Below, piece after piece: positions 2,149 to 20,549 of a stretch of DNA of 64,000 nucleotides. Within the stretch, counting starts at the first letter, position 1; every line of letters begins with the position of its first letter. Source of the stretch: Alphaproteobacteria bacterium (lineage in GTDB: Bacteria > Pseudomonadota > Alphaproteobacteria > CACIAM-22H2); NCBI GenBank assembly GCA_017308135.1, contig JAFKFM010000009.1, positions 496,001-560,000 on the forward strand, read 5' to 3'. Both the position numbers and the translations under genes were made by a program. Under the pieces are notes generated by a model. That model searched no databases. It was given only the letters and a program-made list of their open reading frames with translations, and had not been told where the DNA came from.

Positions 2149-3327
2149 ATGAATCGATTGAATTTCAGCGCCGCGCTGCCGGTCGACGCCGATACCGCGA
2201 GTCTGGTCGGCCGCGTTTGGCTGCCATCCGTAAACGGGCCCAGCGTCGTCGCCATTCGAAACGGCGAGGCGATCGACATCACCGCGACCTACCCGACCGT
2301 GCGCGATTTGTGCGAAACGCCCGACCCCGCCGCCGCTTTGCGCGCCGCCAAGGGCAGTTCGGTCGGCAGCGTCGCCGATCTGCTGGCGAATTCCGACGAA
2401 GCCTTCCGCGATCCCAAGAAGCCCTGGCTTCTCGCCCCCATCGACGTGCAGTCGATCAAGGCGGCCGGCGTGACCTTCGTCGCGTCGATGCTGGAACGCG
2501 TCATCGAAGAACGCACGCGCGGCGTGCCCGAACTCGCGGCGGCCGCGCGCGCGGAAGTGCTTGCCCTCGTCGGCGGCGATCTCGCGCGCTTGAAGCCGGG
2601 CTCGGAAGAGGCCGCGAAGCTCAAGGACTGGCTCGTCGCCAAGAACGCATGGAGCCAGTATCTCGAAGTCGGCATCGGGCCGGACGCCGAGGTCTTCACC
2701 AAATCGCAGCCGATGTCGGCGGTCGGGATCGGCGCCTATGCCGGCCTGCACCCGATGTCGCGCTGGAACAACCCGGAGCCCGAAATCGTGCTGGCGATCG
2801 CGTCCTCGGGCAAGATCATCGGCGCCACGCTTGGCAACGACGTCAACCTTCGCGATGTCGAAGGCCGCTCGGCGCTGCTGCTGGGCAAGGCCAAGGACAA
2901 CAACGCGAGCTGCTCGATCGGGCCGTTCCTGCGGTTGTTCGACGCCAATTACACGCTCGACGACGTGCGCCAATGCGACGTGTCGCTGGTCGTGCAGGGC
3001 CAGGACAATTTCCGCATGGAAGGCAATTCGTCGATCAAGCTGATCAGCCGCGACCCCGCCGATATCGCGGGCCAGACGATCAGCGCCAATCATCAATATC
3101 CGGACGGCTTGGTCCTGTTCCTGGGCACGATGTTCGCGCCCACGCAGGATCGCGGCGCGCCGGGCCAGGGCTTCACCCATAAGGTCGGCGACGTGACCAC
3201 GATCGCCACGCCGAAGCTGGGCTCGCTCATCAACCGCATGACGCTGACGAACGAGGCGCCGCCTTGGATTTTCGGCATCAGTCACCTTTATCGCAATCTC
3301 GCCGCGCGCGGATTGTTCAAGGGTTAA
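2149..3327 (+). CDS. Fumarylacetoacetate hydrolase-family protein, likely 2-keto-3-deoxy sugar-acid dehydratase
   Basis: 392 residues from the ATG preceded by TTGGGGGAACGCT. The C-terminal half has the FAH fold signatures: GPDAEVFTKSQPM, a metal-site region around NNPEPEIVLAI, GNDVNLRDVEGRSALLLGKAKD, and a terminal KVGDVTTIATPKLGSLINRM. The long N-terminal domain is typical of FAH-family dehydratases found in non-phosphorylative pentose pathways, for example 2-keto-3-deoxy-arabinonate dehydratase. The next gene, 16 bp downstream, is a semialdehyde dehydrogenase of the type that takes the next step (alpha-ketoglutarate semialdehyde to 2-oxoglutarate), which supports this role. The exact sugar acid cannot be read from sequence. 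Confidence 0.8.
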   Translation: MNRLNFSAALPVDADTASLVGRVWLPSVNGPSVVAIRNGEAIDITATYPTVRDLCETPDPAAALRAAKGSSVGSVADLLANSDEAFRDPKKPWLLAPIDVQSIKAAGVTFVASMLERVIEERTRGVPELAAAARAEVLALVGGDLARLKPGSEEAAKLKDWLVAKNAWSQYLEVGIGPDAEVFTKSQPMSAVGIGAYAGLHPMSRWNNPEPEIVLAIASSGKIIGATLGNDVNLRDVEGRSALLLGKAKDNNASCSIGPFLRLFDANYTLDDVRQCDVSLVVQGQDNFRMEGNSSIKLISRDPADIAGQTISANHQYPDGLVLFLGTMFAPTQDRGAPGQGFTHKVGDVTTIATPKLGSLINRMTLTNEAPPWIFGISHLYRNLAARGLFKG

Positions 3328-3343
3328 TCAGGAGAATATCGAC

Positions 3344-4789
3344 ATGACTTTCATCGGCAAGAATCTGATCGGCGGCGAGTGGAAAGCCGGCGCGAACGAA
3401 GGCAAGGACGTCAACCCGTCCAACACCAACGAAGTCGTCGGCACCTACGCGCAAGGGGCCGCCGCCGACGTGGACGCGGCGGTCGACGCCGCCAAGGCCG
3501 CGTTCCCGGCGTGGAGCCGCTCGAACCCGCAGGTTCGCTACGAGATTCTGAAGAAAGCGTCGGACGAGGTGTTGGCGCGCCGCGAGGAACTGGGCACGCT
3601 GCTGTCGCGCGAAGAAGGCAAGACCAAGGCCGAGGGCATCGGCGAAGCGACGCGCGCGGGCCAAATCCTGGCGTTCTTCGCGGGCGAAACCGTGCGCTTC
3701 GGCGGCGAGAGCGTGCCGTCGATCCGCCCGAATATCGGCGTGGAAATGACGCGCGAGCCCGTCGGCGTCGTCGGCATGATCACGCCGTGGAACTTCCCCA
3801 TCGCCATTCCGGCGTGGAAGATGGCCCCGGCGCTGGCCTACGGCAATTGCGTGGTCATCAAGCCCGCCGACCTCACGCCCGGCAGCGCCTGGGCGCTGGT
3901 CGATATTCTGCAACGCGCGGGCCTGCCCAACGGCGTGCTGAACCTCGTCATGGGCCGCGGCTCGGTCGTGGGTCAGCGCATCCTCGAACATCCCGGCATC
4001 TCGGCGATCACCTTCACGGGCTCGGTCGGCACGGGCCGCAACGTCGCGGCGGCGGCCATCGCCTCGCGCCCGATGAAGAAGGTGCAGCTCGAAATGGGCG
4101 GCAAGAATCCGATGGTCGTGCTCGACGACGCGGATCTGGCCATCGCGGTCGAATGCGCGGTCAACGGCGCGTTCTTCTCGACCGGTCAGCGTTGCACGGC
4201 CTCGTCGCGCTTGATCGTTCAGGAAGGCATTCACGACAAGTTCGTGGCCGCTGTGGTCGAACGCCTGAAAGCGTTGAAGGTCGACGACGCGCTGAAGGCG
4301 GGGACCGATATCGGCCCGGTCGTCGATGCTTCGCAGCTCAAGACCGATCTCGATTACATCGACATCGCCAAGAAGGAAGGCGCGAAGTTGGCTTGGGGCG
4401 GTGAACTCCTCAACCGCGAAACGCCCGGCTTCTATCTGCAGCCGGCGTTGTTCACCGAAACGACCAACGCGATGCGCATTTCGCGCGAGGAAGTGTTCGG
4501 GCCGGTCGCCAACGTCATCCGCGTCAAGAGCTACGACGAAGCTTTGGCGGTGGCGAACGACACCGAGTTCGGCCTGTCGGCCGGCATCTGCACGACCAGC
4601 CTGAAGCACGCGACGCATTTCAAGCGCAACAGCGAAGCGGGCATGGTGATGGTCAATCTGCCGACGGCGGGTGTCGACTATCACGTGCCGTTCGGTGGCC
4701 GGAAGGGCTCGAGCTACGGCTCGCGCGAACAGGGCAGCTACGCGCGCGAATTCTTCACCACGGTGAAGACCGCCTACACGCTGGCCTAA
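3344..4789 (+). CDS. NAD(P)-dependent aldehyde dehydrogenase, probable alpha-ketoglutarate semialdehyde dehydrogenase
   Basis: 481 residues, full length for the ALDH superfamily. Visible motifs are the cofactor-binding PWNFPIAIPAWK, GSVGTGRNVAA, the general base Glu in QLEMGGKNPMVVLDDAD, and the catalytic Cys in FFSTGQRCTASSRL. It ends with a VPFGGRKGSSYGSREQG-type C-terminus seen in semialdehyde dehydrogenases of sugar-acid catabolism. It sits 16 bp after the FAH-family dehydratase with its own AGGAG ribosome site, so the two probably form an operon that funnels a deoxy-keto sugar acid into 2-oxoglutarate. Succinate semialdehyde is an alternative substrate. A strong terminator follows. Confidence 0.87.
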   Translation: MTFIGKNLIGGEWKAGANEGKDVNPSNTNEVVGTYAQGAAADVDAAVDAAKAAFPAWSRSNPQVRYEILKKASDEVLARREELGTLLSREEGKTKAEGIGEATRAGQILAFFAGETVRFGGESVPSIRPNIGVEMTREPVGVVGMITPWNFPIAIPAWKMAPALAYGNCVVIKPADLTPGSAWALVDILQRAGLPNGVLNLVMGRGSVVGQRILEHPGISAITFTGSVGTGRNVAAAAIASRPMKKVQLEMGGKNPMVVLDDADLAIAVECAVNGAFFSTGQRCTASSRLIVQEGIHDKFVAAVVERLKALKVDDALKAGTDIGPVVDASQLKTDLDYIDIAKKEGAKLAWGGELLNRETPGFYLQPALFTETTNAMRISREEVFGPVANVIRVKSYDEALAVANDTEFGLSAGICTTSLKHATHFKRNSEAGMVMVNLPTAGVDYHVPFGGRKGSSYGSREQGSYAREFFTTVKTAYTLA

Positions 4790-7218: not shown

Positions 7219-8589
7219 ATGAAGCGTATTCTCGCATACGCCGCTGCGGCGGGTATTTTGGCCGCGGCCGCCATGCCGGCGACGGCGCAGGAAAAACTCG
7301 AAGTTTGGTGGGTGAAGGGCTTCTACAAGGCCGAAGACGACGCGTTGTTCGAAGCGATCCGCAAATTCGAAGGCAAGACCGGCGTCAAGGTCGAGCTTTC
7401 GCAATACGCCATTCAGGACATGATTCCGAAGACCGTCGCCGCACTCGATGCGCGCACGGTGCCGGACGTGGCCTATGCGGACGTCTACGATTTCCAAGTC
7501 ACCAGCAAATGGGCCTTCGAAGGCCGCCTGGAGGATATCAGCAGCGTCATCACGCCGATGCTGAACACCTTCGCGCCCAACACGGTCGAAACGACCTTGC
7601 TGTGGAACGACGCGGCGAAGAAGCGCGCCTATTACGCCTTCCCGCTGAAGCAGCAGACGATGCATGTCCAATACTGGCGCGATCTGCTGACCCAGTCCGG
7701 CTTCAAGGAAAGCGACATTCCGAAGAACTGGGCCGAGTACTGGTCGTTCTGGTGCGACAAGGTGCAGCCCGGCTATCGCCGTGCCACGGGCACGCGCGGC
7801 TTCGCCATCGGCCAGCCGATGGGCGTGGACTCGTCCGACAGCTTCTATTCGTTCCTGACCTTCATGGACGCTTATGGCGTCAAGCTGGTCGACGACGACG
7901 GGAAGCTGCTGGTCGATCAACCCAATGTCCGCCAGGGCCTGATCAGCGCGCTGACCGACTACACGGCGCCCTACGCCAAGGGCTGCGTGCCGCCGTCGGC
8001 GACCAGCTGGAAGGATCCCGACAACAACGTCGCCTTCCACAACCGCACGAACGTGATGACGCATAACGCGACCATCTCGATCGCCGCCAAGTGGCTCGAC
8101 GACATGAACAACGCGTCGCTCACGGCCGAGCAGCGCGCCGAAGCCAAGAAGCACTACGAAGAAAACATCGCCACGGCCGGATTCCCGAACCGTCCCAACG
8201 GCCAGCCGATGGTCTATCGCGCCGCCGTCAAGACCGGCGTCGTGTTCTCCGAGGCGCGCAACAAGAACCGCGCCAAGGAGTTCGTGGCCTTCCTGCTGCA
8301 GGAAGAAAACCTGACGCCGTACGTGGAAGGCGCGCTGGGCCGCTGGTTCCCCGTCACCAAGAACGCGCAGCAAGCCGCGTTCTGGCGCGCGGACAAGCAT
8401 CGCCAAGCGGTGCAGGCGCAGTTCGCGGCGGGCACCGTGCCCTTCGAGTTCACCAAGAACTGGAAGTTCACGATCCTCAACAACGAAAACGTCTGGGCCA
8501 AGGCGATGAACCGCGTCGCCAGCGAAAAATGGGCGGTCGATCGCGCGGTCGACGAGATGATCGCGCGCATCAAGCAAGTCGCCGGCTGA
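7219..8589 (+). CDS. ABC transporter extracellular solute-binding protein (family 1, carbohydrate type)
   Basis: 456 residues from the ATG after a GGGAGGAAATGGA ribosome site. A Sec signal peptide ends at PATAQ-E. The mature sequence starts KLEVWWVKGFYKAEDD, the usual beginning of family 1 sugar-binding proteins, and continues with FEGKTGVKVEL and a PDVAYAD hinge. It is lysine- and aromatic-rich, with a C-terminal all-helical lobe. It is followed by a terminator hairpin and then two MalF/MalG-type permeases, so it is the capture component of a CUT1-like importer. The ligand is not evident; glycerol-phosphate, oligosaccharides or polyols are possible. Confidence 0.9.
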   Translation: MKRILAYAAAAGILAAAAMPATAQEKLEVWWVKGFYKAEDDALFEAIRKFEGKTGVKVELSQYAIQDMIPKTVAALDARTVPDVAYADVYDFQVTSKWAFEGRLEDISSVITPMLNTFAPNTVETTLLWNDAAKKRAYYAFPLKQQTMHVQYWRDLLTQSGFKESDIPKNWAEYWSFWCDKVQPGYRRATGTRGFAIGQPMGVDSSDSFYSFLTFMDAYGVKLVDDDGKLLVDQPNVRQGLISALTDYTAPYAKGCVPPSATSWKDPDNNVAFHNRTNVMTHNATISIAAKWLDDMNNASLTAEQRAEAKKHYEENIATAGFPNRPNGQPMVYRAAVKTGVVFSEARNKNRAKEFVAFLLQEENLTPYVEGALGRWFPVTKNAQQAAFWRADKHRQAVQAQFAAGTVPFEFTKNWKFTILNNENVWAKAMNRVASEKWAVDRAVDEMIARIKQVAG

Positions 8590-8603
8590 GCCGGAACACG
8601 CGG

Positions 8604-8641
8604 GGCCTCCGCCATCCGCAAGGATGGTGGAGGCCTTTTTT
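8604..8641 (+). terminator. Strong hairpin terminator/attenuator between binding-protein and permease genes
   Basis: A 14-bp stem (8604-8617 pairs with 8622-8635, one G-T pair) with a GCAA tetraloop and a run of six T. It lies inside the operon, 18 bases before the permease start. Such intra-operon terminators lower permease expression relative to the abundant binding protein and protect the upstream mRNA end. Confidence 0.9.
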
Positions 8642-8659
8642 CCAGATGCGAGCGACGCC

Positions 8660-9535
8660 ATGACCACCGCCGCCAACACCGCACCGATCGTTTCCGCCGC
8701 TGCGTCGCCCAAAAAGGACGACGGCGGCTGGCAATGGTGGGGCACGCTTTTGGTGGCGCCCTATCTCGTCGTGTTCGTCGTGTTCGTGCTCTACCCGGTC
8801 GGCTACGGCTTCTGGCTCGGCCACAATATCGAGAGCTACGTCGAGATTTTCCACGACCCGATCTTCCTGCGCGCGGCGGTGAACACGGTCTTGTTCCTGC
8901 TGATCGCCGTGAACCTGAAAATGTTCGTGGCGCTGCTGCTATCGGGTTTCTTCGCCATTCCGCGCTGGTGGATCCGCATTCTGGGGCTGTTGTTCATCCT
9001 GCCCTGGGCCGTGCCGTCGATCCCCACGATCCTGTCGTTCCGCTTCATGCTGAATCCGGAATGGGGCGTCATCAACCAGCTTTATTTCAATCTGACCTTC
9101 GAAGACGGGCCCAATTGGCTCAACGATCCGATCCTGGCGATGAGCCTCGCCATGGTCGTCCATATCTGGAAGTCGCTGCCGTTCTGGACGCTGATCCTGC
9201 TCGCCGGGCGCCTCGCCATCGCCAAGGAATTGTACGAGGCCGCGTCGATCGACGGCGCCTCAAACGCGCAGAAATTCGCGCACATCACCTGGCCGTCGAT
9301 GCGCCAGCTTTACGTGACCTGCACGATCCTTTCGATGTTCTTCACGCTGGGCGATTTCAACAGCGTCTATCTGCTGACCGGCGGCGGCCCCGCCGACCTC
9401 ACGCATGTGCTGGCCACGCTCGGCATCCGCTATATCCGGCTCGACCGCGTCGATCTCGCCATGGCGTCGATCATGTGCGCGCTGCCGGTGATGCTGCCGA
9501 TGATGGTCTACATGATGCGCCGCTTGTCGAAGTAG
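8660..9535 (+). CDS. ABC transporter permease, MalF/UgpA type
   Basis: 291 residues; I chose the ATG at 8660 because an earlier ATG lies inside the terminator hairpin. Six membrane segments are visible, starting LLVAPYLVVFVVFVLYPV. The cytoplasmic EAA loop reads ELYEAASIDGASNAQKFAHI, which contacts the ATPase in CUT1 importers. The C-terminus has the conserved DFNSVYLLTGGGP segment of sugar permeases. It pairs with the next gene, 10 bp downstream, as a heterodimeric inner-membrane channel. No ATP-binding subunit gene is present in the locus. Confidence 0.9.
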   Translation: MTTAANTAPIVSAAASPKKDDGGWQWWGTLLVAPYLVVFVVFVLYPVGYGFWLGHNIESYVEIFHDPIFLRAAVNTVLFLLIAVNLKMFVALLLSGFFAIPRWWIRILGLLFILPWAVPSIPTILSFRFMLNPEWGVINQLYFNLTFEDGPNWLNDPILAMSLAMVVHIWKSLPFWTLILLAGRLAIAKELYEAASIDGASNAQKFAHITWPSMRQLYVTCTILSMFFTLGDFNSVYLLTGGGPADLTHVLATLGIRYIRLDRVDLAMASIMCALPVMLPMMVYMMRRLSK

Positions 9536-9545
9536 GAGCCGGGAA

Positions 9546-10382
9546 ATGCGCAAAATCGTCGGCGAAGCCCGCCTGCTGCTGATCGGCATTCCCGTCTTCC
9601 TGTGGACGGCGATTCCGCTCTACCACATGATGCTGTTCGCCCTGTCGCCCAAGGAAGCCGCGTTCAAGGGCAAACTTTGGCCCGACAATCCGACCTTGCG
9701 CAATTTCGAACTCGTCTTCGGCCAGAAGCACTATTATCTCAACAATCTCTGGCACCAGATGTGGAACTCGCTGATCATCGCGCTGGCGGTCGGCCTGCTC
9801 ACGCTCTTCGTGGCGACGGCGGCGGCCTTCGCGATCAGCCGCCTGCGCGTGCGCGGCGGGCGCATCATCATGAACATGGCGCTGCTGACCTATTTCGTGC
9901 CCGCCGCGTTCCTAGCGCTGCCGATGTACAAGGCGATGGCGACCTACGGCCTGCTCAACACCCAATGGGCGCTGATCCTGGCGATGGTGACGATCGCCAC
10001 ACCCTATGCGATCTGGGTGCTGAAACAGGCGGCCGACAAATTGCCGCTGGAATTGGACGAGGCCGCGATCGTCGACGGCGCCACAGCGCCGCAATTGTTC
10101 CGCCATGTTTTCGTGCCGCTGATGGCGCCGTCGATGGTGGCCGTGGGCACCTATGCGCTGCTGCTGGCGTGGAACGAATATCTCTACGCCTTCCTGCTGT
10201 TGTCGCGCGACGTGGACACGACGCTCGCCGTGGCGCTGGGCGCGTTCCTGTCGGCCGACGATTCGCCGTGGGAGTTGCTGATGACCACCGGCGTCATCTA
10301 CGCGCTGCCGCCGGCGGCGATCTACTACACCTTCCGCCGCTATATGGCCGCCGATCTCACCTCCGGCTCCGTCAAGACGTGA
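9546..10382 (+). CDS. ABC transporter permease, MalG/UgpE type
   Basis: 278 residues with six predicted membrane spans, beginning LLLIGIPVFLWTAIPLYHMM. The EAA loop ELDEAAIVDGATAPQLFRHV and the downstream LLLAWNEYLYAFLLL are diagnostic of the MalG-type half of carbohydrate importers. An AGGAGCCGGGAA ribosome site precedes it. Its TGA stop overlaps the ATG of the next gene (TGATG), coupling translation to the dioxygenase-like enzyme. It works with the 8660-9535 permease and, presumably, a shared ATPase encoded elsewhere. Confidence 0.9.
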   Translation: MRKIVGEARLLLIGIPVFLWTAIPLYHMMLFALSPKEAAFKGKLWPDNPTLRNFELVFGQKHYYLNNLWHQMWNSLIIALAVGLLTLFVATAAAFAISRLRVRGGRIIMNMALLTYFVPAAFLALPMYKAMATYGLLNTQWALILAMVTIATPYAIWVLKQAADKLPLELDEAAIVDGATAPQLFRHVFVPLMAPSMVAVGTYALLLAWNEYLYAFLLLSRDVDTTLAVALGAFLSADDSPWELLMTTGVIYALPPAAIYYTFRRYMAADLTSGSVKT

Positions 10383-11182
10383 TGCTCAGCGACGCCGAGA
10401 TTTCGCATTACCACCGCGAAGGCTATGTCGTCCCCGGCTTGCGTCTGCCGCCCGCGCGGCTCGAAAGCCTGCGCGGCACACTCGATCGTTTGATCGCCGA
10501 GAATCCCGGCATTCGCCCCGAACGTCTGGTCAGCGCGCATATCGAAGGCAAGAACGCCGAAGGCGTCAAAGGCAGCGCCGATTTCCTGGACATGGCGCGC
10601 GATCCCGCGATCGTCGACGCCGTGTCGCAACTGATCGGCCCCGACGTGATCTTGTGGGGCTGCCAGATTTTCTGCAAACCCGGCGGCAACGGGATGGAAG
10701 TGCCCTTCCATCAGGACGGGCATTACTGGCCGATTCGGCCGCTGGCGACCTGCACGGTCTGGGTGGCGCTGGACGATTCGAAGGTCGAGAACGGGTGCCT
10801 GCGCATCGTGCCGCGCTCGCACGCGTCGCGCACGCTGATGCCCCATATGCGCGAAGACCGCGACGACGTCGTGCTCAACCAGCGCGTCGCCGATCCCGGC
10901 TTCGATCCCGCGACCGCCGCGGATATCGAGTTGGAAGCCGGGCAAATGTCGATGCATGATATTTTCGCGATCCACGGCTCCAACCCCAATCGCAGCCCGA
11001 AGCGGCGCGCGGGCGTGGCCATCCGCTATATGCCCGGATCGTCGGTGTTCGGGCGCGACATCATCGAGCCCGGCGACGCCAGCGGCTACCGCGTCGATTT
11101 CTCGACACGGCCGATTTGGCTGCTCAAAGGCCAGGACCGCACCGGCCGCAACGATTTCAACGTCGGCCACGCGCATTCCTGA
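10382..11182 (+). CDS. Phytanoyl-CoA dioxygenase (PhyH)-family Fe(II)/2-oxoglutarate oxygenase
   Basis: 266 residues, starting on the ATG that overlaps the permease stop. The iron-binding facial triad is visible as FHQDGHYW (His and Asp) and a distal His in FAIHGSNPN, followed by the 2-oxoglutarate-binding Arg in the RRAGVAIRYMP segment. PhyH enzymes hydroxylate small molecules or demethylate/oxidise substrates using O2 and 2-oxoglutarate in the cytoplasm. Translational coupling to the importer implies that it acts on the imported solute. The product is unknown. The stop is followed by a 76-bp gap to an aldo/keto reductase. Confidence 0.85.
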   Translation: MLSDAEISHYHREGYVVPGLRLPPARLESLRGTLDRLIAENPGIRPERLVSAHIEGKNAEGVKGSADFLDMARDPAIVDAVSQLIGPDVILWGCQIFCKPGGNGMEVPFHQDGHYWPIRPLATCTVWVALDDSKVENGCLRIVPRSHASRTLMPHMREDRDDVVLNQRVADPGFDPATAADIELEAGQMSMHDIFAIHGSNPNRSPKRRAGVAIRYMPGSSVFGRDIIEPGDASGYRVDFSTRPIWLLKGQDRTGRNDFNVGHAHS

Positions 11183-11258
11183 GTTGCGCCGCGCGTGATT
11201 GCCGGTTCCGCCCGGCCCTCGCTATCGTGACCGCCGCAATCGCAGGGAGGATCGACCT

Positions 11259-12281
11259 ATGGAATATCGGCGTCTCGGTCATTCGGGGCTTCGCGTCCCG
11301 GCCTTGAGCTTCGGCACGGGCACGTTCGGCGGCAGCGGCGATTTCTTCAAAGCCTGGGGCTCGACCGACGCGGCGGGTGCGTCGCGTCTCGTCGATATCT
11401 GCCTCGATCACGGCCTCACCATGTTCGACAGCGCGTCGGGCTACTCGGCCGGCCTCGCCGAGGAAATTCTCGGCCAGGCGATCAAGGGTAAGCGCGACAA
11501 GGTGCTGATCTCGACCAAGGCGACCTTCCCCACCGGCCCCGGCCCCAACGATTACGGCTCGTCGCGGCAATACCTCACCGAAGCGGTCGACAAAGCGCTG
11601 AAGCGTTTGCAGGTCGATCATATCGATCTGTTCCAGTTGCACGGCCAGGACTACAACACGCCGGTCGAGGAAACGCTGGCCACACTCGACGGCTTCGTGA
11701 AGGCGGGCAAAATCCGCTATATCGGCTGCTCGAATTTCTCGGGCTGGCATTTGATGAAATCGCTGGCCGCGTCCGATCGCTATGGCTATCCGCGCTACGT
11801 GGCGCATCAAGCCTATTACTCGCTGCTCAACCGCGACTACGAATGGGAATTGCTGCCGCTGGGCCAGGACCAGGGCGTGGGCGCGGTGGTGTGGAGCCCG
11901 CTGGGCTGGGGCAAGCTGACCGGCCGCATCCGGCGCGGCCAGCCCGTGCCGGCGGGTACACGCGCTGCGCAGATTCCGGGGACGGGCCCGCGCTACGAGG
12001 AAGAGCGCCTGTTCCGCATCGTCGATGCGCTCGACATCGTGGCGAAGGATACGGGCAAGACGATCCCGCAGATTGCGTTGAACTGGCTGTTGCAGCAGAA
12101 GACCGTCTCGACGCTGATCATCGGCGCGCGCGACGAGAAACAGTTGCAGGACAATCTCGGCGCCGTGGGCTGGAGCCTGTCGGCCGAGCATCGGGCGGCA
12201 CTCGAGGCGGCGAGCGATGTGACGCCCGCCTACCCCGTGTGGCACCAGCGCGGCTTCCCGATGCTGAACGAGAAGCGCTGA
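11259..12281 (+). CDS. Aldo/keto reductase
   Basis: 340 residues from the ATG after CGCAGGGAGGATCGACCT; a longer reading is possible but lacks a good ribosome site. It is a typical AKR TIM barrel: EYRRLGHSGLRVPALSFG start, catalytic Asp/Tyr region MFDSASGYSAGLAEEILG, Lys in VLISTKATFP, and His in LFQLHGQDYNTP. The NADPH-binding C-terminal part is LIIGARDEKQLQDN. It is related to the IolS/YajO-like group. It probably belongs to the importer/dioxygenase locus and oxidises or reduces a sugar-derived carbonyl. It converges on a second AKR gene with one base between the stops. Confidence 0.87.
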   Translation: MEYRRLGHSGLRVPALSFGTGTFGGSGDFFKAWGSTDAAGASRLVDICLDHGLTMFDSASGYSAGLAEEILGQAIKGKRDKVLISTKATFPTGPGPNDYGSSRQYLTEAVDKALKRLQVDHIDLFQLHGQDYNTPVEETLATLDGFVKAGKIRYIGCSNFSGWHLMKSLAASDRYGYPRYVAHQAYYSLLNRDYEWELLPLGQDQGVGAVVWSPLGWGKLTGRIRRGQPVPAGTRAAQIPGTGPRYEEERLFRIVDALDIVAKDTGKTIPQIALNWLLQQKTVSTLIIGARDEKQLQDNLGAVGWSLSAEHRAALEAASDVTPAYPVWHQRGFPMLNEKR

Positions 12282-12282
12282 A

Positions 12283-13296
12283 TTAAGCGCCGCCCGGCAG
12301 GGGTGCGGCGACGTCGATCACGCCCGACGCGCGCAGCTCCTGCCAGAACGCGGCCGGCACTTTTTCGTTGAGCGCCGCGCGATCCTCGGCGATGCGCCCC
12401 GGCTGGCTTGCGCCCGGGATCACCGCCGCGACGGCCTTATGGGCCAGCGCGAACTGCAAACCCGCCGCCTTCATGCTCACGCCATGGCGGTCGGCGAGCG
12501 CCTTGATCGCCGCGACTTTGGCGCGGATTTCCGGCGTCATCGGCGCGTATTCGAAATTGGGGCCGCCGACCAAAGCACCCGAGCTATAGGGCCCGCCGAC
12601 GACGATCCCCAATCCGCGCGAAGCCACCTGCGGCATCACGCGCTGCAAGGCGCGGCCGTGATCGAGCAACGTATAGCGCCCGGCGAGCAGGAATCCGTCG
12701 GGACGGTTCTTCTCCAGGCCCAGCAGCAATTCGATCGGCTCGACGCGGTTGACGCCCAAGCCCCAGGCCTTGATGACACCTTCGTCGCGCAAGCGATCCA
12801 GCGTCTTGAAGGCGCCCTTGCGCGCCGTTTCGAAAACGTCGAGCCATTCGTCGCCGTAGAAATCCTGCGCGACGTCGTGGACCCAGACGATCTCGATCCG
12901 GTCGGTCTTGAGGCGCTTCAAGCTGTCCTCGATCGAGCGCAACGTCGCGTCGGCCGAGTAGTCGTTGACGATCTTGTTCGGACGGCCATGCTTGAACACG
13001 TCGCCCTTCTCGCCCAGGTCGCGCGCGCTGACGTCCTCGATTTCGTCGAGGATCAGGCGCCCGACCTTGGTGCTGATCACGTAATCGTCGCGTTTGCGCC
13101 CGGCGAGCGCTTCGCCCATGCGGATTTCCGCGAGACCCGCCCCATAGAAGGGCGCGTTGTCGAAGTAGCGGATCCCGTCGTTCCACGCGGCATCGACGGT
13201 CGCGCGCGCTTCCGCTTCGGGTATCGCGCGGAACATGTTGCCGAGCGGTGCGGTACCGAAGCCGAGCTTGCCGGGAAGGATGTCTTTGAGAGCCAT
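12283..13296 (-). CDS. Aldo/keto reductase, D-threo-aldose 1-dehydrogenase (L-fucose dehydrogenase)-like
   Basis: 337 residues. The sequence begins LGFGTAPLGNMFRAI, followed by the catalytic Asp/Tyr region YFDNAPFYGAGLAEIRMGEAL, STKVGRLI (Lys) and IVWVHDVAQD (His). The long insertion after the Lys and the C-terminal VIPGASQPGRIAED are typical of pyridoxal/fucose dehydrogenase-type AKRs that oxidise aldoses to lactones. It heads a minus-strand group whose upstream neighbours are a GST and a PfpI protein, with 36 bp between it and the GST stop. Together with the plus-strand AKR it suggests sugar-oxidising capacity here. Confidence 0.85.
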   Translation of the reverse strand: MALKDILPGKLGFGTAPLGNMFRAIPEAEARATVDAAWNDGIRYFDNAPFYGAGLAEIRMGEALAGRKRDDYVISTKVGRLILDEIEDVSARDLGEKGDVFKHGRPNKIVNDYSADATLRSIEDSLKRLKTDRIEIVWVHDVAQDFYGDEWLDVFETARKGAFKTLDRLRDEGVIKAWGLGVNRVEPIELLLGLEKNRPDGFLLAGRYTLLDHGRALQRVMPQVASRGLGIVVGGPYSSGALVGGPNFEYAPMTPEIRAKVAAIKALADRHGVSMKAAGLQFALAHKAVAAVIPGASQPGRIAEDRAALNEKVPAAFWQELRASGVIDVAAPLPGGA

Positions 13297-15676: not shown

Positions 15677-16330
15677 CTAGAACTCGACGTCGAGTTCTTC
15701 GACTTCCTCGGGCTCGGCCTTCGCCGCTTCGGTCCATTCGACCAGCGGCGGGAATTTCAGCATCGTGTCGCGATAGGCGGCGCAAGGCCCGTCGAGCTTC
15801 ACGTTATACGTGGCGAAGCGCGTGCACACGGGCGCGTACATCGCGTCCGCCGCCGTCGGCTTCTTGCCGAACAAATACGGCCCGCCATATTGCTTCAGGC
15901 ATTCGCGCCAGATCGCGGCGACGCGTTCGATGTCGGCCTGCGCGCCCGCCCAGACCTTGAATTGCTCGTGGCGGGTTTTGAGATTCATCGGCAGTGCCGA
16001 CCGCAGATTCGCGAAACCCGAATGCATTTCGCCGCAAACCGCGCGGCAATGGGCGCGCGCGGCTTGGTCGGCCGGCCACAGACCCGCATCCGGCTTCACC
16101 TCGTGCAAATATTCGGCGATCGCCAGCGTGTCCCACACCTTGACCGGCCCATGTTCCAGGCACGGCACGAGGAAAGACGGCGATAAAAGCAGCAATTCCG
16201 CGCGGGTGGACGGATCGTCCAGCGACGCGACCTTCTCGGTAAATTCCAGCCCGGCCATCTTGCACAGCAGCCAGCCGCGCAAAGACCACGAGGAATAGTT
16301 CTTGCTACTGATGGTCAGAGTACTGGTCAT
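15677..16330 (-). CDS. Glutathione S-transferase family protein
   Basis: 217 residues from MTSTLTISSKNYSSW; an ATG seven codons upstream is possible. The N-terminal SKNYSSWSLRGWLLCKMAGL and the SPSFLVPCLEHGPVKVWDTLAIAEYLHE segment form the glutathione-binding thioredoxin-like domain. The C-terminal helical domain contains LFGKKPTAADAMYAPVCTRF. The SSWSLR start is typical of the YfcF-like/maleylacetoacetate isomerase-related bacterial GSTs. The C-terminus is acidic (EEVEELDVEF). It is divergent from the PHB depolymerase with only about 50 bp between the starts. Confidence 0.85.
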   Translation of the reverse strand: MTSTLTISSKNYSSWSLRGWLLCKMAGLEFTEKVASLDDPSTRAELLLLSPSFLVPCLEHGPVKVWDTLAIAEYLHEVKPDAGLWPADQAARAHCRAVCGEMHSGFANLRSALPMNLKTRHEQFKVWAGAQADIERVAAIWRECLKQYGGPYLFGKKPTAADAMYAPVCTRFATYNVKLDGPCAAYRDTMLKFPPLVEWTEAAKAEPEEVEELDVEF

Positions 16331-16382
16331 GGGCGCTTTTGCCATGACCATTCTGAAAGCAAAATTCGAGCCGATCGCCGTG

Positions 16383-17594
16383 ATGCTCTACTCGCTTTAT
16401 CAATCGGCTGCCGATTCCTTTCTCCCGGCGCGGGCCTTCGCGGCGGCGGCGGGTCGCGGCTTCTCCTTCGGGGAGACCGAAACCGCCGATAATTGGCGGG
16501 CGGCCGGGGCGTTGTGCGAGATGATGAGCCGCGCGGCGTTGAGCCATCGCCGCCCCGCTTTCGGCATCGACCAAGTCATGCTCGGCAACGAGATGGTGCC
16601 GGTCGTCGAGGAAAAAGTGACGGCCACGCCGTTCGGCACGCTGTTGCGCTTCGTCAAAGAAGGCGCGCCCGTTCAGCCCAAAGTTCTGGTCGTGGCCCCG
16701 CTCTCCGGGCATTTCGCCACGCTGCTGCGCGAGACGGTGCGCGTGCTGCTCCCCGATCACGACGTGCATATCACCGATTGGGCGAATGCCCGCGACGTGG
16801 GCGTGTGGAACGGCCGTTTCGGCTTCGACGAATATGTCGAGCACATCATCAAGTTCCTTGAGAAAATGGGCCCCGGCTCGCATGTGTTGGCCGTGTGCCA
16901 GCCTTGCGTGCAGACGCTGGCCGCCGCCGCGATCATGGCGGAGGACGACAATCCCGCCCAGCCCGCCAGCATGACGCTGATGGCCGGGCCGATCGATTGC
17001 CGGGTCAATCCCACCAAGGTCAATCACCTGGCCACCAGCAAACCGATGAGCTGGTTCGAGCGCAATCTGATCAGCTATGTGCCGCTGCGCTTCGCGGGCG
17101 CCATGCGCCGCGTCTATCCCGGTTTCCTGCAACTCACCGCGTTCATGAGCATGAATGCCGAGCGGCATTTGAAAGCGCAATCCGATTTGCTGCGCGCCCT
17201 CGCCAAGGGCGATACCGAGCAGGCGAACACGATCAAGAATTTCTACGACGAATACTTCGCCGTGCTGGATTTGACGGCCGAGTTCTATTTGGAAACGGTC
17301 GAGCGTGTGTTTCAGAAATACGAACTGGCGCGCCGCGAACTCAAATGGCGCGGCCGCAAGGTCGACACCAAGGCGATCCGCCGCACGGCGCTGTTCACGG
17401 TCGAGGGCGAGCGCGACGATATCTGCGCGCTGGGCCAAACGGTCGCGGCGCATGATCTGTGCGACGGGTTACGGCCCTATCGCAAGAAGCACTATATGCA
17501 AGCCGGCGTGGGGCATTATGGCGTGTTCGCCGGGCGGCGCTGGGCGGGGCAGATCTACCCGCTGGTGCGCAACACGATCCTGTCGAACGAGTAA
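16383..17594 (+). CDS. phaZ: Intracellular polyhydroxyalkanoate (PHB) depolymerase
   Basis: 403 residues from MLYSLYQSAADS, the usual start of this family; the frame is open further upstream but overlaps the divergent GST. The central alpha/beta hydrolase region has VLVVAPLSGHFATLLRETV, HDVHITDWANARDV and the lipase-box-like VLAVCQPCVQTLA, in which Cys replaces Ser as nucleophile, as in characterised intracellular PhaZ enzymes. A late acid and His (VEGERDDICA and GVGHYGVFAGRRW) complete the triad. The enzyme mobilises intracellular PHB granules. A phasin at 57 kb shows that the genome handles PHA granules. Confidence 0.9.
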   Translation: MLYSLYQSAADSFLPARAFAAAAGRGFSFGETETADNWRAAGALCEMMSRAALSHRRPAFGIDQVMLGNEMVPVVEEKVTATPFGTLLRFVKEGAPVQPKVLVVAPLSGHFATLLRETVRVLLPDHDVHITDWANARDVGVWNGRFGFDEYVEHIIKFLEKMGPGSHVLAVCQPCVQTLAAAAIMAEDDNPAQPASMTLMAGPIDCRVNPTKVNHLATSKPMSWFERNLISYVPLRFAGAMRRVYPGFLQLTAFMSMNAERHLKAQSDLLRALAKGDTEQANTIKNFYDEYFAVLDLTAEFYLETVERVFQKYELARRELKWRGRKVDTKAIRRTALFTVEGERDDICALGQTVAAHDLCDGLRPYRKKHYMQAGVGHYGVFAGRRWAGQIYPLVRNTILSNE

Positions 17595-17663
17595 ACGCAC
17601 GCCACCGCTCCAAAATTTGGGCGTCGATTTCCTAAAGAATGCACAATCTTTGACGTTGCAGTG

Positions 17664-17688
17664 CGCCATTGTGCACTGCACAATGGCG
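17664..17688. promoter_or_regulatory. Perfect 25-bp palindrome upstream of cupin gene, probable operator
   Basis: Arms 17664-17675 and 17677-17688 are perfectly complementary around a single central base. A nested repeat GCAGTGC / GCACTGC overlaps it, and a further TGCACAAT copy lies at 17640-17647. No T-tract follows, so it is unlikely to be a terminator. It ends 23 bp before the ATG of the cupin gene, a good place for repression. The cognate regulator is not adjacent. Confidence 0.7.
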
Positions 17689-17711
17689 GTATCCCAATCG
17701 TGGAGACCGCC

Positions 17712-18854
17712 ATGAATATGCAGGTTATCGACGCTGCGAAACTGGCCTCTCTCGAACACCCCGCCGGCGACCCCTTGCGGCTGAACCGCAGCGCTTTCGT
17801 CGCGGTCGATCGCCACCGCGACGCGCCCTATAACGCGACCTATCGCCCGCAAGCGCTGTATAGCCGCGCGGAGAACGGGTTCCAGGCGAACAACGAGACC
17901 TTTCTGCTGCACGAAGTCGCGACCAATCTGCCGATCCATCGGCCCGATACCGGCCCGACCGATTTCCATATGCATCTGCCGCCGGGCGGATTCCAATTCG
18001 TGCTGGTGACGTCGGGGATGTTCACCTTCGATTACGACGGGCGGCTGCATTATGTCGGGCCCGGTGCCGTGATGCTGCAAAGCGCCATCGTGCATCGCCA
18101 ATTGTTCTATACGTGGTCGGGGCTCGACACCGAAGCGAACCTCGCCACGCCTCAATCGGCGGTGCCCGACGCGATGACGATGGGTTATTCGGGCAAGTTC
18201 CTCGAAGCCTTCATCACCGACCCGACCAGCTTCCCCAACCCGACGATCGTGCCGAGCGACGCGGTCAACGAAGCCGAAACGCCGCGCACGGCGTTCGGGC
18301 ATGCGCTGCACGATCGGCCGAAGGGCGCCGATTTTTGGGTGCAGGACGCGCTATCGCTCGATGCGCTTTACAAACCGTTGCCCCTCGGCGCGCCGATCAA
18401 GTCGGACGCGCCGGTCTATGTCCGCGATCTGAGGATCGAGGCGCCAAGCGGAAATCTCGTGACCGGCCATATCATCGCGACCGATCCGCGCGAACATTCG
18501 CTGCTGCCCAAATCGTCGAGCGGCGGCGCCGATCCAGCGATCCTCGCCAAAGGCGCGGTCGCGATGTATCGCGTCATCCGCGGCACGGCGCGTTTCAAAG
18601 ACGCCGACGGCAAGACGATCGATCTGAGCGCGGGCGACGTCGTCACCACCGGCGCCAACGCGGCGACACTCGTCGAACTCGGCGAAGACAGCCAAGTGCT
18701 GCGCCTGGGCTTGCTCGACGGCATGGACAATCTGCGCAAATGGACGCCGGCCCAGCGCGACGCGATCGACGGGCTGGGCGGCAAGATCATCGCGCGCACG
18801 CAAGTGCGGCCGTTGCGCCTCGACGGTAATCCGGTCGGCTATCTCTACACTTGA
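17712..18854 (+). CDS. Uncharacterised bicupin-like protein
   Basis: 380 residues from the ATG after TGGAGACCGCC. I do not recognise a named family. A first cupin barrel is visible around residues 80-135: FHMHLPPGGFQFVLVTSG gives an H-x-H pair, and GPGAVMLQSAIVHRQ gives the second cupin motif with a His, so a metal site is likely. A second barrel near residues 250-335 (MYRVIRGTARF, IDLSAGDVVTTG) lacks the His ligands. Bicupins include aromatic-ring dioxygenases and sugar-acid isomerases. It lies directly upstream of a TIM-barrel protein and behind a perfect palindrome, so the two probably act in one inducible pathway. Confidence 0.72.
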   Translation: MNMQVIDAAKLASLEHPAGDPLRLNRSAFVAVDRHRDAPYNATYRPQALYSRAENGFQANNETFLLHEVATNLPIHRPDTGPTDFHMHLPPGGFQFVLVTSGMFTFDYDGRLHYVGPGAVMLQSAIVHRQLFYTWSGLDTEANLATPQSAVPDAMTMGYSGKFLEAFITDPTSFPNPTIVPSDAVNEAETPRTAFGHALHDRPKGADFWVQDALSLDALYKPLPLGAPIKSDAPVYVRDLRIEAPSGNLVTGHIIATDPREHSLLPKSSSGGADPAILAKGAVAMYRVIRGTARFKDADGKTIDLSAGDVVTTGANAATLVELGEDSQVLRLGLLDGMDNLRKWTPAQRDAIDGLGGKIIARTQVRPLRLDGNPVGYLYT

Positions 18855-18887
18855 TAAACACGCCGATGCTGGGAGGATACGCGTCTT

Positions 18888-19877
18888 ATGACGCGTATTC
18901 CCCAGTTGAAATTCGGTTGTACCGGCGGCGGCGCCACGCATTCCGATGCGGCGATCCCCGACATCGCCACCAAAGTGCGGATGATCAAGGATGCGGGCGT
19001 GTTCGACTATATCGACCGCTCGCCGCCCGACGAGGAATTCCGCGACCTGCTGAAGGCGAGCGAGCAATGCGATCTGCCCGTGCTCGCCAGTGGCTGGTTT
19101 TACACGGCGGGCCGGGACGAGGCGTTGTTCGAGCGCAATATCGTCAAGGCGCGCCTGCTCGGCAGCCTTGTCCATAACGTGCAATTGATGACGCAGCACG
19201 CCGACGGCCATGTGCTGACCGACGCGGAAGTCGCGGAATTCTACCTGCGCGCCCATGATTTCGGCATGCGCCACGGCGTGACGCCGTGTTTCGAAGTCCA
19301 CGTCAATATGTGGTCGGAGCATTACGGCCGCGTGGCGCGCGTCGCCGCCTTGGTCGAAGCGCGCGGGATTCCGTTCCGCATGACGCTCGACCACAGTCAC
19401 GTCATTTTCAAGATCGACAATCCGGTCGAGCAGGACGTGCAAGCCATGCGCGAGGACGTCGAAACCGGCAAGGTCGTGCTCGACCCCGCGAAACCGGGGA
19501 ATGTCTGCGCGCAATGGATCGCGGCGAATTACGTGGCGCACGCCCATGCGCGCGCGACGATCCCCGCCAACCCGATCAATACGCGCGCCAAACATCCCGA
19601 CGGCAGCTATGGGCGCGGCATCCAATATCCGTTCGTGCGGCCGGAACCCGGCCAATATGTCGCCGATTGGGACGAAGCGAAGCTCGAACCGTGGAAGCGC
19701 GTCCTGCGCGAACTGTTCGCGCATCACGCGGCGGACGAGAAGAGCCCGCTCGCCATGATCTCGTGCGAGTTCATCCCGAATATCGATTACGGTGCGGGAC
19801 ACGGTTATTCGATCTTCGCGAACAACGTCGCTTGCGCGCACTGGATGCGCGCCGAATGGGCCAAGGCTTCCGCGTAG
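18888..19877 (+). CDS. Uncharacterised TIM-barrel protein, xylose isomerase-like/AP endonuclease 2-like
   Basis: 329 residues, starting after TGGGAGGATACGCGTCTT. The pattern of short strands with charged C-terminal ends suggests a TIM barrel: KFGCTGGG, FDYIDRSPP, CFEVHVNMWSEHYGRVARV, FRMTLDHSHVIFKID and MISCEFIPNIDYG. The Glu, His and Asp-His residues at these ends resemble metal-binding sites of the xylose isomerase-like superfamily, but I cannot name an enzyme. It begins 33 bp after the cupin gene and is probably co-transcribed, suggesting a shared sugar or polyol pathway. Confidence 0.7.
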   Translation: MTRIPQLKFGCTGGGATHSDAAIPDIATKVRMIKDAGVFDYIDRSPPDEEFRDLLKASEQCDLPVLASGWFYTAGRDEALFERNIVKARLLGSLVHNVQLMTQHADGHVLTDAEVAEFYLRAHDFGMRHGVTPCFEVHVNMWSEHYGRVARVAALVEARGIPFRMTLDHSHVIFKIDNPVEQDVQAMREDVETGKVVLDPAKPGNVCAQWIAANYVAHAHARATIPANPINTRAKHPDGSYGRGIQYPFVRPEPGQYVADWDEAKLEPWKRVLRELFAHHAADEKSPLAMISCEFIPNIDYGAGHGYSIFANNVACAHWMRAEWAKASA

Positions 19878-20517: not shown

Positions 20518-20543
20518 AAAAGGGGCGGCCAAGGCCGCCCCTT
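20518..20543. terminator. Bidirectional terminator between BON lipoprotein and cold-shock gene
   Basis: AAAGGGGCGGCC / GGCCGCCCCTTT is a perfect stem with a 2-base AA centre, A-rich on the left and T-rich on the right, so it can terminate transcripts from both convergent genes. Confidence 0.85.
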
Positions 20544-20549
20544 TCGATC

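Follow-up and report, generated by a model that had tools for sequence, protein, structure and literature searches.

Xylose-isomerase-like triosephosphate isomerase (TIM) barrels of the PF01261 AP_endonuc_2 superfamily include IolE, the L-ribulose and D-tagatose 3-epimerases, UlaE and DgpC/CarC. Metal-binding cupins are recognized by the two motifs G(X)5HXH(X)3-4E(X)6G and G(X)5PXG(X)2H. Formaldehyde is oxidized to formate by a class III alcohol dehydrogenase (S-(hydroxymethyl)glutathione dehydrogenase, AdhC or FrmA) together with S-formylglutathione hydrolase (FghA or FrmB). According to one review, each methyl group of caffeine is lost as formaldehyde during N-demethylation, and frmA and frmB flank the gene cluster (PMC4408171). 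For the ndm cluster of Pseudomonas sp. NCIM 5235, another review lists the gene that separates the purine permease from ndmC as "orf5, hypothetical protein, unknown" (PMC10380055, Table 2). Here, a stretch of 64,000 nucleotides from an alphaproteobacterial genome (assembly GCA_017308135.1, contig JAFKFM010000009.1, positions 496,001 to 560,000; called the window in the following) was analyzed, in which the gene of a two-domain cupin (17712-18854, plus strand, 380 aa) is followed after a gap of 33 bp (18855-18887) on the same strand by the gene of a xylose-isomerase-like metal TIM barrel (18888-19877, 329 aa). Both open reading frames are complete and open at these coordinates, and both are regarded as real genes because the proteins are conserved among relatives. 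A preliminary description of the sequence had treated them as a metabolic pair. The results below lead to a different picture, i.e., two independent genes, with the barrel somewhat probably being a metal-dependent isomerase or lyase, a reaction that we infer, in the formaldehyde-releasing (demethylation) catabolism of sugar-like compounds.

The barrel protein and its family

The barrel was compared at 72 loci, of which one is the window itself and 71 belong to relatives, with each species represented by a single genome. The search for relatives used peptide patterns derived from the window barrel, and its own clade is over-represented. Identities to the window barrel were 44-89% in 61 relatives. 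The family was found in Alpha-, Beta- and Gammaproteobacteria, in the SAR324 cluster and in one metagenome-assembled genome (MAG) labelled Deltaproteobacteria, and it is also present on conjugative plasmids. The window barrel itself had no match in Pfam, in NCBIfam or among the PDB sequences, and a PDB profile search yielded no credible match. Among the 62 aligned members, 39 matched PF01261 at E<=1, with a best value of 1.2e-7.

An AlphaFold2 model built from 62 sequences had a predicted local distance difference test score (pLDDT) of 96.2 and a predicted template modelling score (pTM) of 0.93. Foldseek matched this model to UlaE (E 1.9e-9). VIA comparisons gave Z 23.1 for the Art22 isomerase (root-mean-square deviation (rmsd) 3.1, 254 residues aligned), Z 22.1 for IolE (rmsd 2.9, 257 aligned) and Z 21.4 for an L-ribulose 3-epimerase (rmsd 3.0, 248 aligned). 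By its fold, the window barrel therefore belongs to the xylose-isomerase-like TIM barrel superfamily, and it shares the fold of the described members with Z values of 20-23 over 233-265 residues. The best folds tie within about 1-2 Z, and no NCBIfam model singles out IolE or a 3-epimerase. In contrast to the common fold, the identity to the described members is only 9-17%, there is no significant Pfam match and no PDB sequence relative, and the neighboring genes are unlike theirs. The barrel is a member of an undescribed, unannotated family.

Four residues, E136, D168, H220 and E294, were invariant in 62 of 62 members and, judged by this conservation, likely form the metal set of the barrel. 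They lie at the C-terminal strand ends, as do the acidic and histidine residues of the metal sites in the PF01261 superfamily. The model, the structural matches and these residues bear out the earlier view of the protein as a TIM barrel with a metal site.

Formaldehyde oxidation and sugar genes beside the barrel

The genes around the 72 loci were called with a simple codon-score caller trained on barrel genes; it missed the barrel at a few loci, for which tblastn coordinates were used. A list of operon partners, from which no count given here is drawn, skipped 20 of the 72 loci (the window, near-duplicates and one fragment). Clustering of the neighbors revealed AdhC at position +1 and FghA at position +2, each at 10 loci (L004-L010, L058, L060 and L067). 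In 10 of the 71 relatives, the barrel is thus immediately followed by the two genes of glutathione-dependent formaldehyde oxidation, and this adjacency is undercounted because some contigs end close to the barrel gene. One AdhC taken as an example reached 609.8 bits against TIGR02818 (cut-off 543.95), and one FghA reached 424.7 bits against TIGR02821 (cut-off 281.7). At three loci (L007, L008 and L067) the reading frames of barrel and AdhC overlap by four bases (ATGA-type). The linkage was also seen for distant barrels, i.e., L058 and L060 in MAGs labelled SAR324 or Deltaproteobacteria. In addition, an Aminobacter plasmid carries the order barrel-AdhC with a barrel 45% identical to that of the window, and the second barrel copy of genome G287 (L157, 43% identical) adjoins FghA alone. 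No other clue to the function of the barrel is as strong as this link to formaldehyde oxidation.

A tree of 78 barrels was used to follow the history of this linkage. In it, the window barrel forms a clade with L002 and L003 (support 100/99), and the sister group (97/94) consists of L004 and L007, both with the order barrel-AdhC-FghA. Linkage to AdhC extends to deeper branches of the 21-member clade that contains both groups (L006, L008/L067, L005/L009 and L010). AdhC linkage needed 2 changes on the tree, compared with a mean of 5.7 after shuffling. Most simply, the barrel gene would at first have been part of a formaldehyde operon and would later have come to lie behind the cupin in one lineage, with the caveats that apply to inferred gains and losses. 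In contrast to the sister loci, AdhC and FghA are unlinked to the barrel in the window genome; its best AdhC, followed by FghA, lies at G000:C10, where there is no barrel.

Under the proposed mechanism, a divalent metal would be held by the four conserved residues, and the substrate would be a hydroxylated carbonyl compound that the barrel converts by enediolate chemistry, which could be an isomerisation, an epimerisation or an elimination/retro-aldol cleavage. A methylated sugar or sugar acid would be demethylated oxidatively, the one-carbon (C1) unit would leave as formaldehyde, and this would be burnt via glutathione. In the window genome, two genes upstream of the barrel, for a 2-keto-3-deoxy-sugar-acid dehydratase and for a semialdehyde dehydrogenase, would belong to the same type of pathway, with AdhC and FghA supplied from elsewhere. 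Elsewhere in the family, barrel genes adjoin sugar transporters, sugar-acid dehydratases and oxygenases that can remove methyl groups. Specific substrates, i.e., apiose, 4-O-methylglucuronate and branched sugars, were considered and not adopted, since no direct evidence here pointed to them.

In the window, the two candidate pathway genes (2158-4789) lie upstream of the barrel at a distance of about 14-16 kb. The first (2158-3327, plus strand) encodes a fumarylacetoacetase-superfamily (FAA-hydrolase) protein resembling 2-keto-3-deoxy-sugar-acid dehydratases (PDB 9kkt, E 1.7e-123; PDB 2q18, a 2-keto-3-deoxy-D-arabinonate dehydratase, E 1e-17), which we take to be XylX-like. The second (3344-4789, plus strand) encodes an aldehyde dehydrogenase of the alpha-ketoglutaric-semialdehyde type, with a score below the NCBIfam cut-off. 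Orthologues of both are part of the barrel operon of L007 (77% and 84% identity, the latter directly before the barrel), where the order is these two genes, barrel, AdhC, FghA; homologues of the first gene directly precede the barrel also in L058 and L060. A sugar-type ATP-binding cassette (ABC) transporter (a solute-binding protein and two permeases) together with a gene for a PhyH-family Fe/2-oxoglutarate dioxygenase (10379-11182) occupies 7273-11182 on the plus strand. The wider region 7273-13296 holds this transporter, PhyH and two aldo/keto reductases, and the part from the transporter to the first reductase is 94-99% conserved in L003.

A class sample of 385 genomes was searched with thresholds of E<=1e-40 for the barrel and E<=1e-5 for the cupin. 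It contained 28 barrel genes in 25 genomes; AdhC or FghA was adjacent in 4 cases (G128, G231, G127 and the second G287 copy) and not in the other 24. PhyH-type dioxygenase genes (local profile) were found within about 6 kb of 8 of the 28 barrels. In 11 genomes of the family of the window organism, to which this measurement is confined, 86 PhyH matches were counted over about 46 Mb, a density of about 1.9 per Mb, from which fewer than 1 would be expected.

Further neighbors of barrel members were sugar ABC and tripartite ATP-independent periplasmic (TRAP) transporters, an IlvD-type sugar-acid dehydratase and a gene annotated as IolG, and inspection by eye added an L-fucose-mutarotase-like protein and Gfo/Idh/MocA-like oxidoreductases. 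These neighbors, together with the best folds (Art22 isomerase, IolE and L-ribulose 3-epimerase), would also fit an ordinary sugar or sugar-acid isomerase or epimerase similar to IolE or tagatose 3-epimerase. In that case AdhC and FghA would be adjacent as a co-regulated detoxification in methylated-sugar catabolism, and the barrel would perform no direct C1 chemistry. We regard this as quite possible, though short of probable; a pure sugar role leaves unexplained that a homologue stands directly before ndmC in a caffeine cluster. The proposed demethylation-linked isomerase or lyase agrees in part with the preliminary description, which had postulated a cofactor-free isomerisation or C-C cleavage route for a sugar or polyketide-like acid. 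The fold, the invariant residues and the sugar-transporter and sugar-acid-dehydratase neighbors fit a metal-dependent, probably cofactor-free isomerase or lyase in sugar-type catabolism.

Barrel homologues in caffeine clusters

A plasmid collection contained 53 records with a barrel homologue (38 from Acinetobacter, 6 from Pseudomonas, 4 from Klebsiella and five others). In Pseudomonas putida MT178 the homologue is 36.6% identical to the window barrel. On one side it adjoins a nucleobase symporter gene, and on the other lie genes with the annotations Rieske oxygenase, Rieske reductase, glutathione S-transferase and fghA; AdhC, a GntR regulator and two further oxygenases are encoded nearby. Similar clusters were found in K. 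pneumoniae MS6671, P. putida 1290 and Paraburkholderia caffeinilytica CF1. The MT178 homologue occupies the same place, from purine permease to ndmC, as orf5 of the ndmABCDE cluster in PMC10380055, and formaldehyde genes are part of the cluster; the correspondence to orf5 is one of gene order, not of sequence comparison. In contrast to the caffeine clusters, no N-demethylase was seen beside the window barrel. Whole or partial caffeine-type N-demethylation clusters with a barrel homologue were present on plasmids at L082, L083, L084, L087 and L088, including a conjugative plasmid of a clinical K. pneumoniae. In the one Acinetobacter record that was inspected (L084), the homologue lies beside a 2-oxoglutarate (2OG)-Fe oxygenase and Rieske genes.

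The presence of the family in caffeine N-demethylation as well as in sugar-type clusters, without a common substrate, opens a third reading, namely that the barrel acts directly on the hydroxymethyl or formaldehyde unit. It might break down N- or O-hydroxymethyl compounds or speed up the formation of S-hydroxymethylglutathione, and it would thus serve unrelated demethylations. Formaldehyde oxidation is the recurrent common element of the barrel loci, and the barrel adjoins formate-tetrahydrofolate ligase in L030, PhyH at several loci and 2OG-Fe(II) oxygenases in L161 and L162, all of which would fit such a role. On the other side, hemiacetals from O-demethylation should collapse unaided as a matter of general chemistry, most members have no C1 neighbors, and the caffeine branch has altered ligands. 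This general C1 role appears unlikely. A little less likely still is the extension that the barrel founds an undescribed enzyme family which, once oxidative demethylation has taken place, processes the C1 (hydroxymethyl or formaldehyde) unit or the molecule that directly carries it; the demethylated compounds would be sugars in Alphaproteobacteria and methylxanthines on plasmids of Pseudomonas, Klebsiella and Paraburkholderia. If the C1 reading were true, it would provide a function for the "unknown" orf5 of the caffeine-degradation clusters. Literature searches found no paper that links xylose-isomerase-like barrels with demethylation, N-demethylase, formaldehyde or 4-O-methylglucuronate, TIM barrels with ndmC/ndmD, or sugar phosphate isomerase with demethylation, and PMC10033563, retrieved for methylated sugars and formaldehyde, does not mention isomerase, TIM barrel or epimerase.

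On the tree, the caffeine-cluster barrels form a branch separate from the window barrel (100/100), and the window barrel, which has H220 and E294 where that branch has Q and D, lies outside the orf5 branch. Transfer of function to or from the caffeine branch needs caution because the branch is separate and two predicted ligands are changed.

Several points speak against the favored role of the barrel as isomerase or lyase in formaldehyde-releasing sugar catabolism. AdhC and FghA were not adjacent in the sampled flanks of 61 of the 71 relatives, and the neighborhoods vary widely. Several of the AdhC-linked loci come from one genus and are therefore not independent. The function reaches the window barrel by inheritance only, because its own AdhC linkage was lost. 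The metal set was assigned from conservation. The changes H220 to Q and E294 to D occur in 5 of 5 members of the caffeine branch, which, thus, may do something else. In addition, the spacing of 33 bp would allow co-transcription of cupin and barrel, and a joint role could have been acquired in one lineage. An unannotated barrel family with repeated occurrence next to the genes of glutathione-dependent formaldehyde oxidation and also within a caffeine N-demethylation cluster is a lead that can be tested. Once assigned, its reaction would fill a gap in the demethylation pathways used for bio-decaffeination and would possibly show how methylated sugars are consumed.

The cupin gene and its upstream palindrome

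As nearest kind of the cupin we assume the two-domain 3-His cupins of the gentisate-dioxygenase type. The window cupin resembles them in its match to Pfam Cupin_2 (30.2 bits in 2 stretches, cut-off 27.2), which places it in the cupin superfamily, and in its histidine-rich first domain; unlike them, it has Gln95 instead of the usual Glu ligand. Orthologues in 7 relatives were 67-94% identical. In the first barrel of the protein, H86-x-H88...Q95...H128 was invariant in 8 of 8 aligned orthologues. Compared with the two cupin motifs, the three histidines are kept, the Glu is replaced by Gln, the spacing is longer, and the second domain (about residues 280-335) has no motif and no comparable histidines. 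The earlier wording of one intact and one degenerate barrel was thus fair as judged by the sequence. The structure prediction was poor (pLDDT 28, from 3 close sequences only). No relative was found in NCBIfam or, by searches including a PDB profile search, in the PDB; no match was obtained in the plasmid collection, and none of 132 pattern matches in viral contigs was confirmed. The cupin is probably a histidine-rich 3-His(+Gln) metal protein with its own putative operator of the repressor type. At a more distant locus, L110 (5202-8637), the cupin adjoins a Bug-type solute-binding protein (identified by eye) and an amidohydrolase (Amidohydro_2), a setting typical of aromatic-acid breakdown.

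The co-occurrence of the two genes was analyzed at three levels. At the barrel loci, the cupin was present in 3 of 72, i.e., in the window and in 2 of the 71 relatives (L002 and L003). In the class sample the barrel was found in 25 genomes, the cupin in 5 and both in 2, and the genomes with both belong to the genus of the window. Among 11 genomes of this genus, 9 have the barrel and 5 have the cupin, and all 5 cupin genomes also have the barrel. The genes are adjacent in three of these (G000, G385 and G392) and apart in two (G128 and G390). In the latter two, a glutathione S-transferase (GST), PhaZ and the cupin are found at one locus and barrel-AdhC-FghA at another, with no barrel after the cupin; the barrel position in G390 (L100/L004) was taken from tblastn, since the caller had missed the gene. 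Outside the genus, three genomes have the cupin without the barrel.

These results rule out a conserved cupin-barrel operon, and the pair of the preliminary description, for which a lack of co-occurrence in relatives had been named as the refuting outcome, was not borne out. The juxtaposition of cupin and barrel in one lineage is well supported, and the two are best read as independent genes. A single inducible pathway for both is a very unlikely reading; it would explain the short distance on one strand, kept in three genomes, and the upstream operator would be common to both genes if they were co-transcribed, but the separate loci of G128 and G390 and the absence of co-occurrence outside the genus in the class sample oppose it.

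A block of GST, polyhydroxybutyrate (PHB) depolymerase and cupin is conserved in the genus (window 15677-18854; L107 4982-8232; L111 5487-8744). In the window it comprises a GST-like gene on the minus strand (15677-16282) and the gene of the depolymerase PhaZ on the plus strand (16329-17594). Both are likewise found before the cupin in the two genomes of the genus that have no barrel after it.

Upstream of the cupin lies a perfect palindrome with 12-nt arms and a 1-nt spacer, CGCCATTGTGCA-N-TGCACAATGGCG (17664-17688), which is the putative cupin operator. Its conserved core is TTGTGC-N3-GCACAA (17669-17683), and the outer arms are not conserved among relatives. It is preceded by a half-site, TGCACAAT (17640-17647), and a conserved block, TTTGACGTTGC (17649-17659). 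Alignment of five same-genus cupin promoters (window, L002, L003, L107 and L111) revealed TGCACA of the half-site, TTTGACGTTGC and TTGTGC-N3-GCACAATR in all five. The more distant L110 cupin has a version with one change, CTGTGC-N3-GCACAA, and the core was not found upstream of the L108 or L109 cupins. Two of the five cupins with the conserved promoter have no barrel downstream. The operator is assigned to the cupin because the core is kept before cupins without a barrel behind, and, as far as the sequence tells, the palindrome is a switch of the cupin and not of a pair. The earlier observation of a palindromic operator was thus correct for the arms, but the argument for induction covers the cupin only. 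The gap of 33 bp may allow read-through from the cupin promoter into the window barrel.

In the 5.2-Mb genome the full 25-bp palindrome has no other copy at <=3 mismatches, which rules out a genome-wide regulon of the full site. The core occurs in 2 exact copies and in 10 at <=1 mismatch, compared with 1 for the reversed control. The second exact copy (L122 6157, G000:C6:653156) lies between glnK-like and amtB-like genes, and other copies are near transport genes. No regulon is claimed for the core because the number expected by chance at one mismatch, estimated by hand, is of the same order. The TGC-N3-GCA of the core presumably resembles PhaR sites, and, together with the GST-PHB depolymerase-cupin block, it may tie the cupin to polyhydroxyalkanoate regulation. 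The conserved operator offers a separate handle for identifying the regulator of the cupin.

A scan for promoter and terminator consensus sequences yielded 0 sites. A perfect inverted repeat of 9 bp spans the start codon of the barrel gene (18877-18898) and might form an RNA hairpin; it is imperfect in the two closest relatives, L002 and L003. Perfect palindromes with 12-nt arms (gap 0-8) occur only 3 times in the 64-kb window. A second one, AAAGGGGCGGCC at 20519-20544, is located between convergent small genes and is possibly part of a terminator.

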